From: Luteitalea pratensis
GTDB taxonomy: Bacteria > Acidobacteriota > Vicinamibacteria > Vicinamibacterales > Vicinamibacteraceae
DNA: 64,000 nucleotides
Direction of reading: 5' to 3'
Assembly: GCF_001618865.1 (NCBI RefSeq)
Contig: NZ_CP015136.1
Location: 4,747,001-4,811,000, forward strand
Shown: positions 33,515-38,463 of the stretch, piece after piece
Numbering within the stretch: the first letter of the stretch is position 1
Layout: every line of letters begins with the position of its first letter
The notes under the pieces: generated by a model
The model's input: the letters and a program-made list of their open reading frames with translations, nothing else
Database searches by the model: none
Told to the model about the DNA's origin: nothing
Made by a program: the position numbers and the translations under genes

Positions 33515-34447
33515 ATGCAGCAACCGCCCGAGTATCCGAGGACGGCCGGAGACCACACCAGCACGGGAATCCACGTGGATGCACTGCCCGGTGCTTCCGA
33601 TGCGGTCTCGAGGGCCACGACGGATCGGATTCTTCTCGAGGGGCCTCATTCCCGCGGCCGGGAACTCTGGCTCGTGGTCCGCGCCCTGCGTGACTTCATC
33701 GAAGGGTTCAGAACGCTGCATTTTGTCGGGCCGTGTGTGACGGTGTTCGGTTCGGCCCGCTATGACGAATCGCACCCGTACTACGCGCTGGCGCGCGAGG
33801 TCGGGCGCGCTGTGGCACGCCTGGGGTTCACCGTCATGACCGGCGGCGGCCCTGGTCTCATGGAGGCGGCCAATCGGGGCGCGCGCGACGTCGGCGGTCG
33901 CTCGGTCGGTTGCAACATCGAGCTCCCCAGGGAGGAGGGGCCGAACCGCTATCTCGACCGCTGCGTCATTTCTCGCTACTTCTTCGTGCGCAAGATCCTG
34001 CTCTTCAAGTACTCATACGCCTTCATCGGACTCCCTGGCGGCCTCGGCACCCTCGACGAGCTGTTCGAGGCCTTGACCTTGATCCAGGCGAGAAAGATCG
34101 CGAACTTTCCGATTGTCCTGCTTGGCACGGAGTACTGGCGTCCGGTCCAACACCTGCTCGAGCACCTCGCCGACGAGGGCACCATCGATCGCCCCGACCT
34201 CGCGCTGTTCCTGCTGACTGATTCGGTGAGCGAGGCGGTGGAGCACATTCAGCGGCACGCCATCGAGCGGTTCGGCCTCAGGCGGCGCCCAATCCGTCCG
34301 TCGGCCTGGCTGCAGGAGCGCGACGGCGCTCCTGCCCCGGGGGCTGTGCACGGGCCGAGTCTTCCCGCGCACCCGCGGCCCCTCCAGCGTGATACGCGGA
34401 TCAGCGGACAAGGCTCGTCGGCACCGACTCCGGACGCACCGCCGTAG
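33515..34447 (+). CDS. LOG-family protein (nucleotide 5'-monophosphate phosphoribohydrolase)
   Basis: 310 residues. The LOG motifs are complete: TVFGSARYDE, GGGPGLMEAANRGA and the catalytic PGGLGTLDELFEALT. Such enzymes release the base from (cytokinin) nucleoside monophosphates; in bacteria they may serve nucleotide salvage or stress. There are N-terminal (~60) and C-terminal (~60, Pro/Arg-rich) extensions without family similarity. ATG 33515 follows AAGGGGAA at 12 bases, a loose but usable ribosome-binding site. It is transcribed away from the efflux operon. Confidence 0.86.
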   Translation: MQQPPEYPRTAGDHTSTGIHVDALPGASDAVSRATTDRILLEGPHSRGRELWLVVRALRDFIEGFRTLHFVGPCVTVFGSARYDESHPYYALAREVGRAVARLGFTVMTGGGPGLMEAANRGARDVGGRSVGCNIELPREEGPNRYLDRCVISRYFFVRKILLFKYSYAFIGLPGGLGTLDELFEALTLIQARKIANFPIVLLGTEYWRPVQHLLEHLADEGTIDRPDLALFLLTDSVSEAVEHIQRHAIERFGLRRRPIRPSAWLQERDGAPAPGAVHGPSLPAHPRPLQRDTRISGQGSSAPTPDAPP

Positions 34448-34603
34448 TCTCGCGCGTGTTCGCATGTGGACAGAACCTTGCAGCACGTCCTGGTGGAGCC
34501 GGCATGAGCGTCGCATGTGTGGCGGCATCATCCACTCCGCCGGCTTCTCTGGCCGCATCGCGTGCAGAACTCGGTTCGAGTTCACCTACCAGGAGGAGAC
34601 GTC

Positions 34604-35047
34604 GTGCGCGTCGAAGACATCATGGAACGTGCCGTCGAGGCCGCCGACGCGAGCATGCCAGCCGGCGTGGCGTGGGACCGCATGCGCCGTCGAGGCCTGC
34701 GAATGTTTGCCATCGTCGACAGGACGGGCATCGTCGGCATCGTGACCCGCGACCAACTCGGCGGACACGGCGCGCCGACTCGGCGTGATCGGACACTGGG
34801 AGACTTCGTCCGGACCGACGTCCTCACCACCACTCCGGATTGTCCGGTGACGCACGCCGCGGCAGTACTCAGTGGGCGTACGCAGGGCTGCCTCCCGGTC
34901 CTTCGAGGCACGCAACTGGTTGGTGTACTGACGATCGCGCAACTGCTCGAGAAGCTTGCGCATGCGCCGCACATGGGCCGCGCCGCCCACGTCTGTGGCG
35001 CGTGCCGCGAGTCCGAACCTGATCAGAAGGGACACCGCGTGTCTTGA
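34604..35047 (+). CDS. CBS-domain pair protein
   Basis: 147 residues containing two CBS motifs: VEDIMERAVEAADASMPAG to FAIVDRTGIVGIVTRDQLGG, and FVRTDVLTTTPDCPVTHAA to LPVLRGTQLVGVLTIAQLLE. CBS pairs usually bind adenine nucleotides and act as energy sensors. The C-terminal tail has CGAC, a possible single CxxC. The GTG at 34604 is the start because AGGAGGAG lies five to thirteen bases before it; the first ATG (34622) would cut into the first CBS strand. Follows the LOG gene by 156 bases on the same strand. Confidence 0.82.
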   Translation: MRVEDIMERAVEAADASMPAGVAWDRMRRRGLRMFAIVDRTGIVGIVTRDQLGGHGAPTRRDRTLGDFVRTDVLTTTPDCPVTHAAAVLSGRTQGCLPVLRGTQLVGVLTIAQLLEKLAHAPHMGRAAHVCGACRESEPDQKGHRVS

Positions 35048-35098
35048 GTGCCTGCGCTCATCGCAGGGAGGGCGCGAAAGGCCGCTGGTTGCGGCAAC

Positions 35099-35560
35099 TT
35101 ACCCGGGCACGCACATCTCCGCGGGTTCGGCAATCTCGACACTGGTCTCCAAAGTGACCTGGGCGTTCAGCGACCTGGAGATCAGGCAGTTGCTTTCCGC
35201 CTTCTCGAGCGCGTGTCGCGCCGCGGCGGCATCCACTCCGGCAGGCACCACCAGATGCGCGCTCATGTCGACGCGCGTGAACTGCGTCACTCGGTCTACC
35301 CGATCGAGTGTGCCGGTGGCTTCGCAATCGAGCGATATCCAGGACACTCTCGACGCATTGGAGATTGCGCGAAACGTCAGGATGAAGCAATCGACCACGG
35401 CGCCGACCAACAGCGTTTCCGGCGACCATCGGTCACCCGGGCCATCGAACTCGGCTGGGGAAGCAGACTGGAGCACCGTCAGCCGGGCCGCCGACAATGC
35501 GACATCGCCTGTGATTCCCCCAGTTCCCCTGACGCGGTATCGATGTGGAAGCGCCTGCAT
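35099..35560 (-). CDS. OsmC-family peroxide/osmotic stress protein
   Basis: 153 residues with the OsmC/YhfA fold: SPETLLVGAVVDCFILTFRA carries the first conserved Cys and KAESNCLISRSLNAQV the second. The pair normally acts as a thiol peroxidase on organic hydroperoxides. ATG 35560 is preceded by GGGAGTGAG. Codons upstream in the same phase are open to 36052 but have no family similarity. It is divergent from the Hsp20 gene, with about 460 bases between them, and convergent with the CBS gene. Confidence 0.84.
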   Translation of the reverse strand: MQALPHRYRVRGTGGITGDVALSAARLTVLQSASPAEFDGPGDRWSPETLLVGAVVDCFILTFRAISNASRVSWISLDCEATGTLDRVDRVTQFTRVDMSAHLVVPAGVDAAAARHALEKAESNCLISRSLNAQVTLETSVEIAEPAEMCVPG

Positions 35561-36018
35561 GGTCTCACTCCCGAGTGAATCTCTGCGATGGATACGGTCC
35601 GGTCGATCTGCTCGTCTCACGCGCCACGCCCCGTGCCTCGCCACCTGCGCGTCCGCGTGGCCGCCTCCGCTTCGCGGCCCTTCATGCGTATACGCAGCAG
35701 ATTTCGATCCATTGAGTCCACCTTCGAGTTCGTGGGAGGACTGCAGGAGGATCCGCTGTTTACGTGGCTGCGCCCGGGCGGCTGGGCGCCGAAGTCGGCG
35801 ACCGAGAACATCGATGTCGTCGGCGCTGCGCGAAAATCTCCACATCCGTGGGTGTTCTTTCGCGGGCTTCTGTCCACCGCCTGTGGAGTGCGATGGCTGG
35901 AACTCCGTGCCTCGGCCACATCGGCCCGAGAGCCCCCGATGCCTTTCAGGCACGCTTGTTGCCTTCGAAGCTTGTGCAGCCACCAGCCCGTTGCGGCTGG
36001 TGCCAGAGAGGAGGATCC
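35561..36018. other. Divergent promoter/leader region between OsmC and Hsp20 genes
   Basis: 458 bases with no convincing gene. The right end is the Hsp20 leader with two hairpins (listed separately). The promoters for both stress genes must lie here, but I see no confident -35/-10 pair and no CIRCE-type inverted repeat. Confidence 0.45.
35940..36002 (+). promoter_or_regulatory. Two hairpins in the 5' leader of the Hsp20 gene
   Basis: TGCCT-TTC-AGGCA (35940-35952) is followed by an 8-bp perfect stem CACCAGCC (35981-35988), loop CGTTGC, GGCTGGTG (35995-36002). The second stem ends about ten bases before the GAGGAGG ribosome-binding site and 16 bases before the ATG. The position suits a leader that modulates translation of a heat-shock gene, but pairing with the Shine-Dalgarno itself is not evident, so an RNA-thermometer role is only a suggestion. 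Confidence 0.35.
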
Positions 36019-36537
36019 ATGTTCGAGAAGAAGCCAGGGCCCCTCGTCCCAATCCGCGGCACGCGCGACCCCTTTGCGCGGTTGCGGCAGATCACCTCAG
36101 AGCTCGATCGGGCGTTCCAGGACTGGCCGTCGTTTCACTGGCCGTCGTTTGGCCAGTTCGCGACGTCGGAGTCCGTCGCCTGGTCGCCGAAGATCGATGT
36201 CTTCGAGCGAGACCACCGGCTGGTCACGCGAGTCGACCTGCCGGGCATGAAGAAGGAAGACGTCTCGGTCGAAGTGACCGATGGCCACCTCGCGCTGTCC
36301 GGGGAACGCAAGTGTGACAAGGCCGAAAAGAACGACAACGTCTATCGAATCGAGCGCGAGTACGGCAGTTTCTTCCGCGCCGTGCCGCTGCCGGACGGCG
36401 TCAAGGTCGAAGACGTCAAGGCCACCTTCGCCGACGGCGTGCTCGAGGTCAGCGTCCCGTTGCCCGCGAAGGCCGCGGCGACCGTGAAAACAGTCCAGAT
36501 CGAGGAACCGAAGGCAGCCACCAAGGGCGCGGCGTAA
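36019..36537 (+). CDS. Small heat-shock protein (Hsp20/alpha-crystallin family)
   Basis: 172-residue ATP-independent chaperone. The alpha-crystallin domain runs from about 58 to 150: WSPKIDVFERDHRLVTRVDL, LPGMKKEDVSVEV, LALSGERK and FADGVLEVSVPLP. The C-terminal I-x-I/V anchor (VQIEEP) may be present in weak form. ATG 36019 has a strong AGAGGAGGA ribosome-binding site. The N-terminal ~55 residues include a Trp/Phe-rich DWPSFHWPSFGQF repeat expected to bind unfolded clients. It is single-gene and followed by a strong hairpin. Confidence 0.93.
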   Translation: MFEKKPGPLVPIRGTRDPFARLRQITSELDRAFQDWPSFHWPSFGQFATSESVAWSPKIDVFERDHRLVTRVDLPGMKKEDVSVEVTDGHLALSGERKCDKAEKNDNVYRIEREYGSFFRAVPLPDGVKVEDVKATFADGVLEVSVPLPAKAAATVKTVQIEEPKAATKGAA

Positions 36538-36605: not shown

Positions 36606-36699
36606 GCATGTGATCCGGGCACCCACTCTTGTGGGCCCATGCGGTCCCGGAGGCGAATACCGCGGCAGGTCACTTGCTGAAGTGCAGGCGGAGCTACCT

Positions 36700-38463
36700 G
36701 TGAAGCTGTCTGCCATCGCGTTGGATTACGACGGCACTATCGCCAGCGGGGATGTGTTGGACCCATCCGCGCAAGACGCCATCGCCGCGACTCGCGCACG
36801 CGGGATCGTCGTCGTGTTGGTCACGGGGCGAATTCTCGACCAATTGCGGCGGGTGGCTGGTGACCTGCATTTCGTCGATGGCGTCATCGCCGAGAACGGC
36901 GCGGTGATGCATTTTCCTGACAGTGGACGGACCTCCGCACTCGCACCTCCGGTGCCTGAGGAATTCGTCGCCGAACTGAGTCGTCGTGGGATTCCGTTCG
37001 CAGCTGGACGGTGCCTGGTCGACGCGGACGCCAACGACGCGCCGCGGCTGCTCGACATCATTCGGACGCTGGAGTTGCCACTCGTGCTCATCTTCAACCA
37101 CGGGCGCGTAATGGTGGCATCGCAGGGCGTGAGCAAGGCGACCGGCCTGAACGTCGTCCTCGAGACGCTGCGTCTCTCGGCCCGCAACACGGTCGCGATC
37201 GGGGACGCGGAGAACGACCACGAACTCCTGCGACTGGCCGAAGTTGGTGTCGCCGTCGCCTGGGGGCGGAAGGCTTTGCAGGCGAGCGCCGATATCGTTC
37301 TCGATGGCACCGGCCCGGCGGCGGTGGGCGACTATCTGCGAACGCTCGCCGCGGCCGGAACGCTCCCGATCCCGCCGCGCGCCCGTCGTCGCCTGTTACT
37401 CGGGACTCTGGCGGATGGTCGTGAGTTCTCACTCGCGGTTCGCGGGCGCAACGTCCTGGTGACCGGCGACGCCACGTCCGGAAAGTCCTGGGTCGCGGGC
37501 CTCCTGTGCGAACAACTGATTCTCCACGGCTACTCCGTGTGCGTCGTCGATCCAGAAGGGGACTACAGCTCGCTGGAAGGGCTGCCCGGCGTGACCGTGC
37601 TCGGACGCGACGATGCTCCGCCGACGTCGCGCGAGCTGCTGCGCGCGCTGCGGTATCCGGATCGGAGCGTGGTCCTTGACCTGTCTCGCCTCCCGTACGA
37701 TGACAAGTTCCATTACGTGCGCGCCATATTGCCGGCGCTGAACGTCTTCAGGCGCCGCACAGGCCTTCCGCATCGCATTCTGCTGGACGAAGCACACTAC
37801 TACCTGCATGACACGGACGCACCGCAACTGCTCGACTTCGAGCACAACGGTTACACAGTCGTCACGTATTGCGCGTCTCGCTTGCCACCAGCGGTGCTCA
37901 CCAGCACCGAGGTGATGATCGTGACGCGCGAATCGAACCCCGCCGAGATGGACGCGCTCCGCGCCCGTTGCCGGGGATGTGCCGCGATTGACGCGTCGCG
38001 CTGGGCTGTGCTTGGCCACCTGAAGGTCGGCCAGGCCGTGGCACTTCCTATCACCGAAGAAGCCGCTGGCGAGTTGCGACTGTTCACGATCGCCCCCAGG
38101 CTCACCACTCATGTGCGGCATCGCGAGAAGTACGTCGACGTTCCCGTGAGTTCCGATCGCGCGTTCGTGTTCCGCACGGACGGGCACGCTGGGCAGAGAA
38201 TTCGTACGCTCCGTCAGTTCGTGTCCGCCCTGGAGACGACGTCGAAACCATTGCTGGCCGGCTACATCGGCCGCGGCGACTTTTCGCGCTGGATTGGCGA
38301 TGTGTTCGGCGATCGTGCACTTGCCGCAGAGCTGCAGGCGCTCGAACGGCGCCATGGTGCCGGACCGCGGGAGGAGACGCTTCGGGAGATGGTGAGCGCC
38401 GTGCGTCATCGGTACGACCTCGCTGACGACGACGTCGAGACGGCGGAGTCGAGTGCACACTGA
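36700..38463 (+). CDS. HAD-IIB phosphatase fused to a HerA-like P-loop ATPase domain
   Basis: 587 residues. Residues 1 to ~215 are a Cof/HAD-IIB hydrolase: motif I DYDGTIA (9-15), VTGRILDQL and motif IV GDAENDHELL (about 168). Residues ~235-520 are a P-loop ATPase: Walker A GDATSGKSW, then CVVDPEGDYSSLEG (typical of HerA/DUF87 after the P-loop), Walker B RILLDEAHYYL, and TYCASRLPPAVL. The helical tail is Arg/Glu-rich. Joining a small-molecule phosphatase to a HerA-like motor is unusual. GTG 36700 (VKLSAIALDYDG) is preceded by GGAG at eight bases; an upstream GTG at 36610 lacks domain support. Confidence 0.8.
   Translation: MKLSAIALDYDGTIASGDVLDPSAQDAIAATRARGIVVVLVTGRILDQLRRVAGDLHFVDGVIAENGAVMHFPDSGRTSALAPPVPEEFVAELSRRGIPFAAGRCLVDADANDAPRLLDIIRTLELPLVLIFNHGRVMVASQGVSKATGLNVVLETLRLSARNTVAIGDAENDHELLRLAEVGVAVAWGRKALQASADIVLDGTGPAAVGDYLRTLAAAGTLPIPPRARRRLLLGTLADGREFSLAVRGRNVLVTGDATSGKSWVAGLLCEQLILHGYSVCVVDPEGDYSSLEGLPGVTVLGRDDAPPTSRELLRALRYPDRSVVLDLSRLPYDDKFHYVRAILPALNVFRRRTGLPHRILLDEAHYYLHDTDAPQLLDFEHNGYTVVTYCASRLPPAVLTSTEVMIVTRESNPAEMDALRARCRGCAAIDASRWAVLGHLKVGQAVALPITEEAAGELRLFTIAPRLTTHVRHREKYVDVPVSSDRAFVFRTDGHAGQRIRTLRQFVSALETTSKPLLAGYIGRGDFSRWIGDVFGDRALAAELQALERRHGAGPREETLREMVSAVRHRYDLADDDVETAESSAH

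Follow-up and report, generated by a model that had tools for sequence, protein, structure and literature searches.

The window analysed here, a stretch of 64,000 nucleotides of the Luteitalea pratensis genome (7,480,314 bases in one contig), contains a complete gene for a three-domain protein in which a HAD-IIB phosphatase is joined to a HerA-like ATPase domain and a DUF5752/OrfY-like domain, the last of which was overlooked in the initial annotation. The gene occupies positions 36700-38463 on the forward strand and has 587 codons and a GTG start. Both the fusion and the intactness of its HAD and Walker motifs are firm. The best explanation, to which we give a probability of about 45 %, is that the protein is a stress-linked HAD-IIB phosphatase, probably with a sugar-phosphate or glycoside substrate, that is regulated by its HerA-derived ATP-binding domain and its OrfY/DUF5752-like domain. 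Under this explanation, we infer that the phosphatase would act on a phosphorylated sugar or glycoside in a manner linked to stress, that ATP binding, slow hydrolysis or a ring of the HerA-derived domain would gate phosphatase activity or assembly, and that the C-terminal domain would probably dock partner proteins. The literature treats HerA-family ATPases as pumps for DNA or as components of defence complexes; if the explanation is true, a conserved family spanning multiple phyla, with fold and nucleotide-binding motifs retained, the motor residues dropped and a metabolic phosphatase attached, would show the HerA fold used for metabolic control.

A three-domain fusion present in several phyla

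The gene is a single ORF with zero internal stops. A second in-frame GTG lies upstream at 36610, and the alignable portion of the relatives starts at the residue encoded at 36700. With the whole protein as query, Pfam returns Hydrolase_3 (PF08282; 92.5 bits against a cut-off of 20.9) and the DUF87/HerA central domain (PF01935; 30.9 bits against a cut-off of 23.2). The motifs that the initial annotation had read in one protein are located at residues 9-13 (DYDGT), 168-173 (GDAEND), 256-263 (GDATSGKS) and 361-366 (LLDEAH), and the further element that it had quoted, VVDPEGDYSSLEG, is present at residues 282-294. That annotation had also considered that the two domains might be separated by a missed frameshift. 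An artefact of this kind, or one arising from two genes, is ruled out by the intact single ORFs of the relatives; the Luteitalea protein can be aligned with 44 intact relatives belonging to several phyla, the domains are unseparated, and Hydrolase_3 is matched in 45 and DUF87 in 44 of the 45 members (E <= 0.01).

These counts refer to an alignment drawn from a scan of genome contigs that gave 72 loci, of which 53 (L009-L061) are assigned to the family; the other 19 (L062-L080) match over a short or incomplete stretch. The alignment, A1, comprises the window sequence and 44 of the 53 family loci; left out are two intact loci close to others (L023 and L051), two cut by contig ends (L025 and L039) and five in which the frame is broken or short (L036, L037, L043, L045 and L059). 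Its 45 sequences share 39 invariant columns. The records that hold family members are titled Acidobacteria, Planctomycetota, Proteobacteria classes, Gemmatimonadetes, Rokubacteria, Eremiobacterota and others, and include plasmids of Sinorhizobium, Aminobacter, Agrobacterium, Paraburkholderia, Caballeronia, Synechococcus and Nonomuraea, whose members, where named, are called HAD or HAD-IIB hydrolase; a Nostoc plasmid carries a HAD-only copy. Of 297 genomes in the same phylum as Luteitalea, 13 carry a near-full-length copy, taken as a match spanning almost the whole profile. The figure is 21 of 297 in the order to which genome G300 belongs (source of a Mesorhizobium locus) and 11 of 294 in the phylum that includes genome G297 (source of a Rhodopirellula locus); one of these 11 has a stop inside the match. 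At one site (G254:C49:44695-46412), adjacent matches to profile positions 1-315 and 305-576 lie in different frames, and the fusion is apparently broken there, the break belonging either to the genome itself or to its assembly. Among the titles and abstract beginnings searched in the literature, none describes a HAD/HerA-like fusion architecture; the 2004 FtsK-HerA survey (PMC521647) might.

The phosphatase and ATPase domains

The HAD-IIB domain covers residues 1-222 (36700-37365, forward strand) and, in addition to its Pfam match, exceeds the cut-off of the HAD-SF-IIB model TIGR01484 (65.1 bits against 41.8). Motif I (DYDGT, 36724-36738) has D9, D11 and T13 in 45/45 sequences, all six columns of motif IV (GDAEND, 37201-37218) are invariant, and the catalytic residues D9, D11, T42, K146, D169 and D173 are kept throughout, so that motifs I (DxD), II (T/S), III (K) and IV (GDxxxD) are all represented; N172 is invariant as well. 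In an AlphaFold2 model of the whole protein (mean pLDDT 91.9, pTM 0.81), the HAD half matches PH1421 (1wr8) with a Z of 26.7 over 219 aligned residues (rmsd 2.6). The domain thus has in common with the HAD-IIB phosphatases PH1421, TA0175, YidA and BT4131, and with their sucrose- and trehalose-phosphate phosphatase relatives, all four HAD motifs and the IIB fold including its cap, and we assign it, by sequence and predicted structure, as a phosphatase of HAD-IIB type. Unlike those enzymes, it is fused to an ATPase, and it reaches the cut-off of none of the equivalog models among the best 25 of 41 matches. The closest of the NCBIfam models is the archaeal phosphoglycolate phosphatase (TIGR01487, E 8.9e-25), and the molecule in 1wr8, the best fold match, is itself named phosphoglycolate phosphatase; both would suit a phosphatase for phosphoglycolate, or another metabolite-repair enzyme, with a regulatory tail. 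However, the TIGR01487 score of 87.8 bits is below the cut-off of 122.75 and the neighbourhoods seen contain no pointer to phosphoglycolate, and we hold such a function to be improbable.

The HerA-like P-loop domain follows at residues 226-486 (37375-38157, forward strand). Its Walker A motif (GDATSGKS, 37465-37488) has G256, G261, K262 and S263 invariant in 45/45 sequences, and its Walker B motif (LLDEAH, 37780-37797) has D363, E364 and H366 in 45/45; between them lies DPEGDY (residues 284-289, 37549-37566; D284, E286, G287 and Y289 invariant), the equivalent of DPHGDY in Thermococcus HerA. R351, P357 and H358 are also invariant, and a family-specific RHxxKY motif at residues 473-478 (38116-38133) has R473 and H474 in 45/45 and K477 and Y478 in 44/45. 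The initial annotation had left room for a P-loop unrelated to HerA. The relationship is borne out by the above-cut-off PF01935 match and by the model, whose ATPase half aligns with Sulfolobus HerA (4d2i) at a Z of 26.5 (234 aligned residues, rmsd 2.4, 18% identity), VirB4 and DndH giving Z values of 22.9 and 22.7. Among the HerA-like structures listed, the match begins at chain residues 110-157 (VirB4 and DndH being numbered differently) and at model residues 226-232, with the HAD domain preceding it. An hmmsearch with the ATPase profile also brings up many ABC transporters, which are read as sharing P-loop features.

In a profile alignment with Thermococcus HerA (9x1l), Walker A, DPHGDY and Walker B pair closely with the Luteitalea domain, and these elements, together with the RecA-like fold and the DE of Walker B, are what the family has in common with the HerA/FtsK-HerA clade. 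The differences concern the parts of a motor. With positions placed by sequence alignment and not by superposed coordinates, the family has a 7-residue gap opposite the REGRKFG of Thermococcus HerA and a 4-residue gap against the EGRKF of Nezha HerA, whose EGR is aligned with non-Arg columns; GRK occurs between residues 360 and 400 in none of the 45 sequences, and no column from 366 to 395 has Arg in half of them. At position 390, opposite the Gln of SQRPS by the same alignment, the sensor-1 Gln is found in 0/45 sequences (Tyr in 29, Val in 11, Ala in 3, Trp in 1 and Leu in 1). Furthermore, the N-terminal HAS barrel is without counterpart in the model, and an insertion of roughly 100 residues present in HerA is also missing; where HerA has its own flanks, the family has the HAD and DUF5752-like domains.

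According to a passage of PMC10853773, the HerA/FtsK clade is marked by a sensor-1 Gln at the end of strand 4 and by an arginine finger shortly before that strand; the REGRKFG segment would, judging from the alignment and that passage, be the same element as this finger. In a passage of PMC11291478, mutation of the basic residues of Walker A and of the R-finger is reported to lower the ATPase activity of a HerA complex strongly. An arginine finger could be supplied here by R351, R473 or another residue, and those of RHxxKY are possible substitute basic residues. Since the finger segment, the sensor Gln and the HAS barrel are missing, we call the domain HerA-derived and regard translocation, on the alignments and the model, as unlikely; the reading of it as a HerA-type motor is not supported.

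The same observations bear on a role in DNA- or RNA-end processing, in which a HerA-like ring motor would work with a HAD domain that removes terminal phosphates, as in PNKP. Examples of HAD phosphatases that act on the ends of nucleic acids are known, and the HerA fold and both Walker motifs are intact. The absence of the finger segment and the sensor Gln in 45/45 sequences and the lack of a HAS barrel speak against this role, as do the IIB type of the HAD domain, the best matches of which are among metabolite phosphatases, and the position of one HAD-only relative with sugar enzymes; we consider end processing to be quite unlikely.

The C-terminal domain and links to sugar metabolism

The third domain (residues 487-575; 38158-38424, forward strand) is a single repeat whose kinship was recognized through OrfY (4cso), which matches the C-terminal 107 residues at 3e-6 with phmmer and at an E of 2e-15 with a profile, and through hhalign against an alignment of 13 free-standing DUF5752 proteins (probability 97.3, E 1.8e-11). 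The Pfam DUF5752 model matches 6/45 whole proteins at 0.01; the Luteitalea copy alone scores 21.3 bits, below the cut-off of 23, and has an E of 0.99 in a search of its own genome. For the domain modelled alone (pLDDT 84.3, pTM 0.69), Foldseek returned zero matches at E <= 0.001, and 4cso was absent among the best 50 of 87 matches. It is by sequence profile, then, that the domain is related to DUF5752/OrfY, and it differs from 4cso in having one repeat where OrfY has two, in being fused, and in occurring in a genome with no detected TreT. The literature search found no papers on OrfY or DUF5752.

Free-standing DUF5752 proteins are encoded in 66/95 genomes of the phylum of G307, and in all 30 loci listed from that phylum (L221-L250) the gene adjoins that of the trehalose synthase TreT on the same strand, as it also does in L219 and in a Thioalkalivibrio locus (L102); this suggests that DUF5752 is a partner of TreT. 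Other links to sugar metabolism involve the phosphatase. In Aminobacter, the fusion gene (L148) stands divergently beside genes for GT4, amylo-alpha-1,6-glucosidase (GDE) and trehalose-6-phosphate synthase (OtsA); OtsA is also near the fusion in L055, and in L046 the fusion comes after genes for a member of the alpha-amylase family and for a debranching enzyme. In L215, a HAD-only gene heads a same-strand row that continues with GT4, a debranching-type enzyme (GDE) and GT20 (OtsA), and the gene order is the same in L217, where the HAD gene was the only one scanned with Pfam and GT20 was found at the expected place. The genomes of these two loci (G575 and G558) have GT20 and no Trehalose_PPase match. 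The HAD-only genes in these rows (L215:6001-12019 and L217:5998-12004) are candidates for the missing trehalose-6-phosphate phosphatase, and the DUF5752/OrfY proteins and the HAD-only gene in OtsA rows, in two genomes without a recognised OtsB, both of them unstudied, are hereby made testable.

Taken family-wide, such links would make the protein an alternative trehalose-6-phosphate phosphatase, an analogue of OtsB whose C-terminal domain docks on trehalose synthase. The HAD-only rows, the two genomes with GT20 and without PF02358, the fusions near OtsA, the 30 loci of DUF5752 beside TreT and the match of the model to the trehalose-phosphate phosphatase structure 6upb (Z 21.0, 208 aligned residues, rmsd 2.8) all count in its favour. 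However, the Luteitalea genome has no match to PF00982 (OtsA/GT20), PF02358 (Trehalose_PPase; E <= 0.001) or PF21269 (TreT), and both GT20 and TreT are absent from six of 19 genomes examined, three of them carrying fusions (G000, G297 and G308) and three HAD-only copies (G409, G397 and G602). Moreover, 10 of the 12 genomes with GT20 also have a canonical Trehalose_PPase, and trehalose/glycogen genes lie near just 3/82 fusion loci. Trehalose-6-phosphate as a general substrate is weakened by these loci and by the enzyme-lacking genomes, and we view a family-wide OtsB analogue as unlikely, though it stands ahead of phosphoglycolate; the compound could still be the substrate of the fusion in some lineages.

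To return to a regulated, stress-linked phosphatase, a more specific form is that a HerA-clade ATPase, withdrawn from DNA translocation by the loss of its arginine finger and sensor Gln, would act as an ATP-sensing assembly switch by which a sugar-phosphate phosphatase is activated or silenced in stress, with the OrfY-like domain linking it to partners in sugar synthesis. This form is tentative, and we would sooner doubt than believe it. The initial annotation had spoken of a nucleotide- or sugar-phosphate-sensing ATPase, possibly a switch in defence or stress; a stress switch related to sugar phosphates remains plausible from indirect evidence, and the defence part is unsupported.

Genomic surroundings and HAD-only relatives

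The setting among stress genes noted earlier is confirmed. Ahead of the fusion gene, positions 33593-36537 hold a small stress cluster consisting of a LOG/lysine-decarboxylase-like family gene (33593-34447, forward strand, the end of a longer open frame; PF03641), a CBS-domain gene (34517-35047, forward strand, ORF as listed; PF00571), an OsmC-like gene (35099-35560, reverse strand; PF02566) and a gene for an Hsp20 small heat-shock protein (36019-36537, forward strand, ATG and stop checked; PF00011). Neighbours were counted in 82 non-redundant loci, each 8 kb or longer and the window among them, and in 39 controls, of which 20 are other regions of genomes that bear a target and 19 are the loci L062-L080. 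With controls that are only partly matched and neighbour queries that come mostly from target loci, which inflates enrichment on the target side, any stress gene is found at 25/82 fusion loci versus 2/39 controls (p 0.0009) and USP at 15/82 versus 0/39 (p 0.0019). The remaining groups are P-type ATPase (7/82 versus 0/39), CBS (8/82 versus 1/39), Hsp20 (5/82 versus 0/39), LOG (3/82 versus 0/39), Dps (3/82 versus 1/39), GT4 (5/82 versus 0/39) and trehalose/glycogen genes (3/82 versus 0/39); taken singly, CBS, Hsp20, LOG, P-type ATPase, GT4 and the trehalose genes are non-significant (p 0.06 to 0.31). There were 27 neighbour queries, and the one that was mis-framed (part of acetate kinase) is in none of the groups counted.

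For defence genes, PADLOC models were applied at 1e-20 to 191 neighbours of the relatives (80 of the 102 genes listed for clade B and 111 of the 182 for clade A), as delimited by a simple gene caller that chose the wrong strand in some GC-rich loci (e.g. L218 and L219). Few of the 191 match, and no recurrent system was found among them; three members match generic RtcR-type sigma-54 activator models, each set has one match to mad3, DrmD is matched a single time, and three IetA models have one member each. A defence function is not supported by these neighbourhoods, in which stress genes recur instead. Within the family itself, 43/45 members match mad8 and 10/45 the HerA model of PADLOC, the mad8 match of the Luteitalea protein being confined to residues 248-302. 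Nine phage records match the protein, solely in its HAD half, and none covers 80% of it; a phage origin is unsupported.

These results also weigh on the idea of an anti-phage effector resembling HerA-SIR2 or HerA-DUF4297, whose phosphatase would deplete a metabolite on infection. Complexes of HerA with effectors are among the closest folds, the PADLOC matches of the family point the same way, and HerA-SIR2 (Nezha) and HerA-DUF4297 resemble the Luteitalea protein in pairing a HerA-fold ATPase with an enzymatic partner. Yet here the enzymatic partner, a phosphatase, belongs to the same polypeptide, the R-finger segment is missing, and the defence context is not a recurrent one; with the neighbour scan, the recurring stress genes and the partial phage matches also against it, an anti-phage effector is very unlikely.

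HAD-only relatives were placed in a tree built from 59 HAD domains together with an outgroup. Those with sugar enzymes (L215 and L217) group with the Aminobacter fusion (100/96), the Nostoc plasmid copy (L145) with Synechococcus L146 (96/91), and L220 with the fusions L056 and L060 (96/80); L213 and L214 form a pair (97/96) inside a poorly resolved group, and L216 is on a long branch, where its placement is unsure. An ATPase/C-terminal tail was detected near none of the seven HAD-only loci, and it was detected in the positive control, L148. Loss of the tail on several occasions is the probable history, being more likely than repeated gain of a two-domain tail that can still be aligned. Since the HAD-only relatives nest among fusions, it seems to be the phosphatase that is kept. 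Two genomes carry both forms, G558 having the three-domain fusion (L157) and the HAD-only relative (L217) on separate contigs, and G073 likewise having the pair L186 and L220. On the Nostoc plasmid, an annotated IscB RNA-guided nuclease (L145:11487-12663) lies about 5 kb from the HAD-only gene, with a gene for glucose-6-phosphate dehydrogenase in between.
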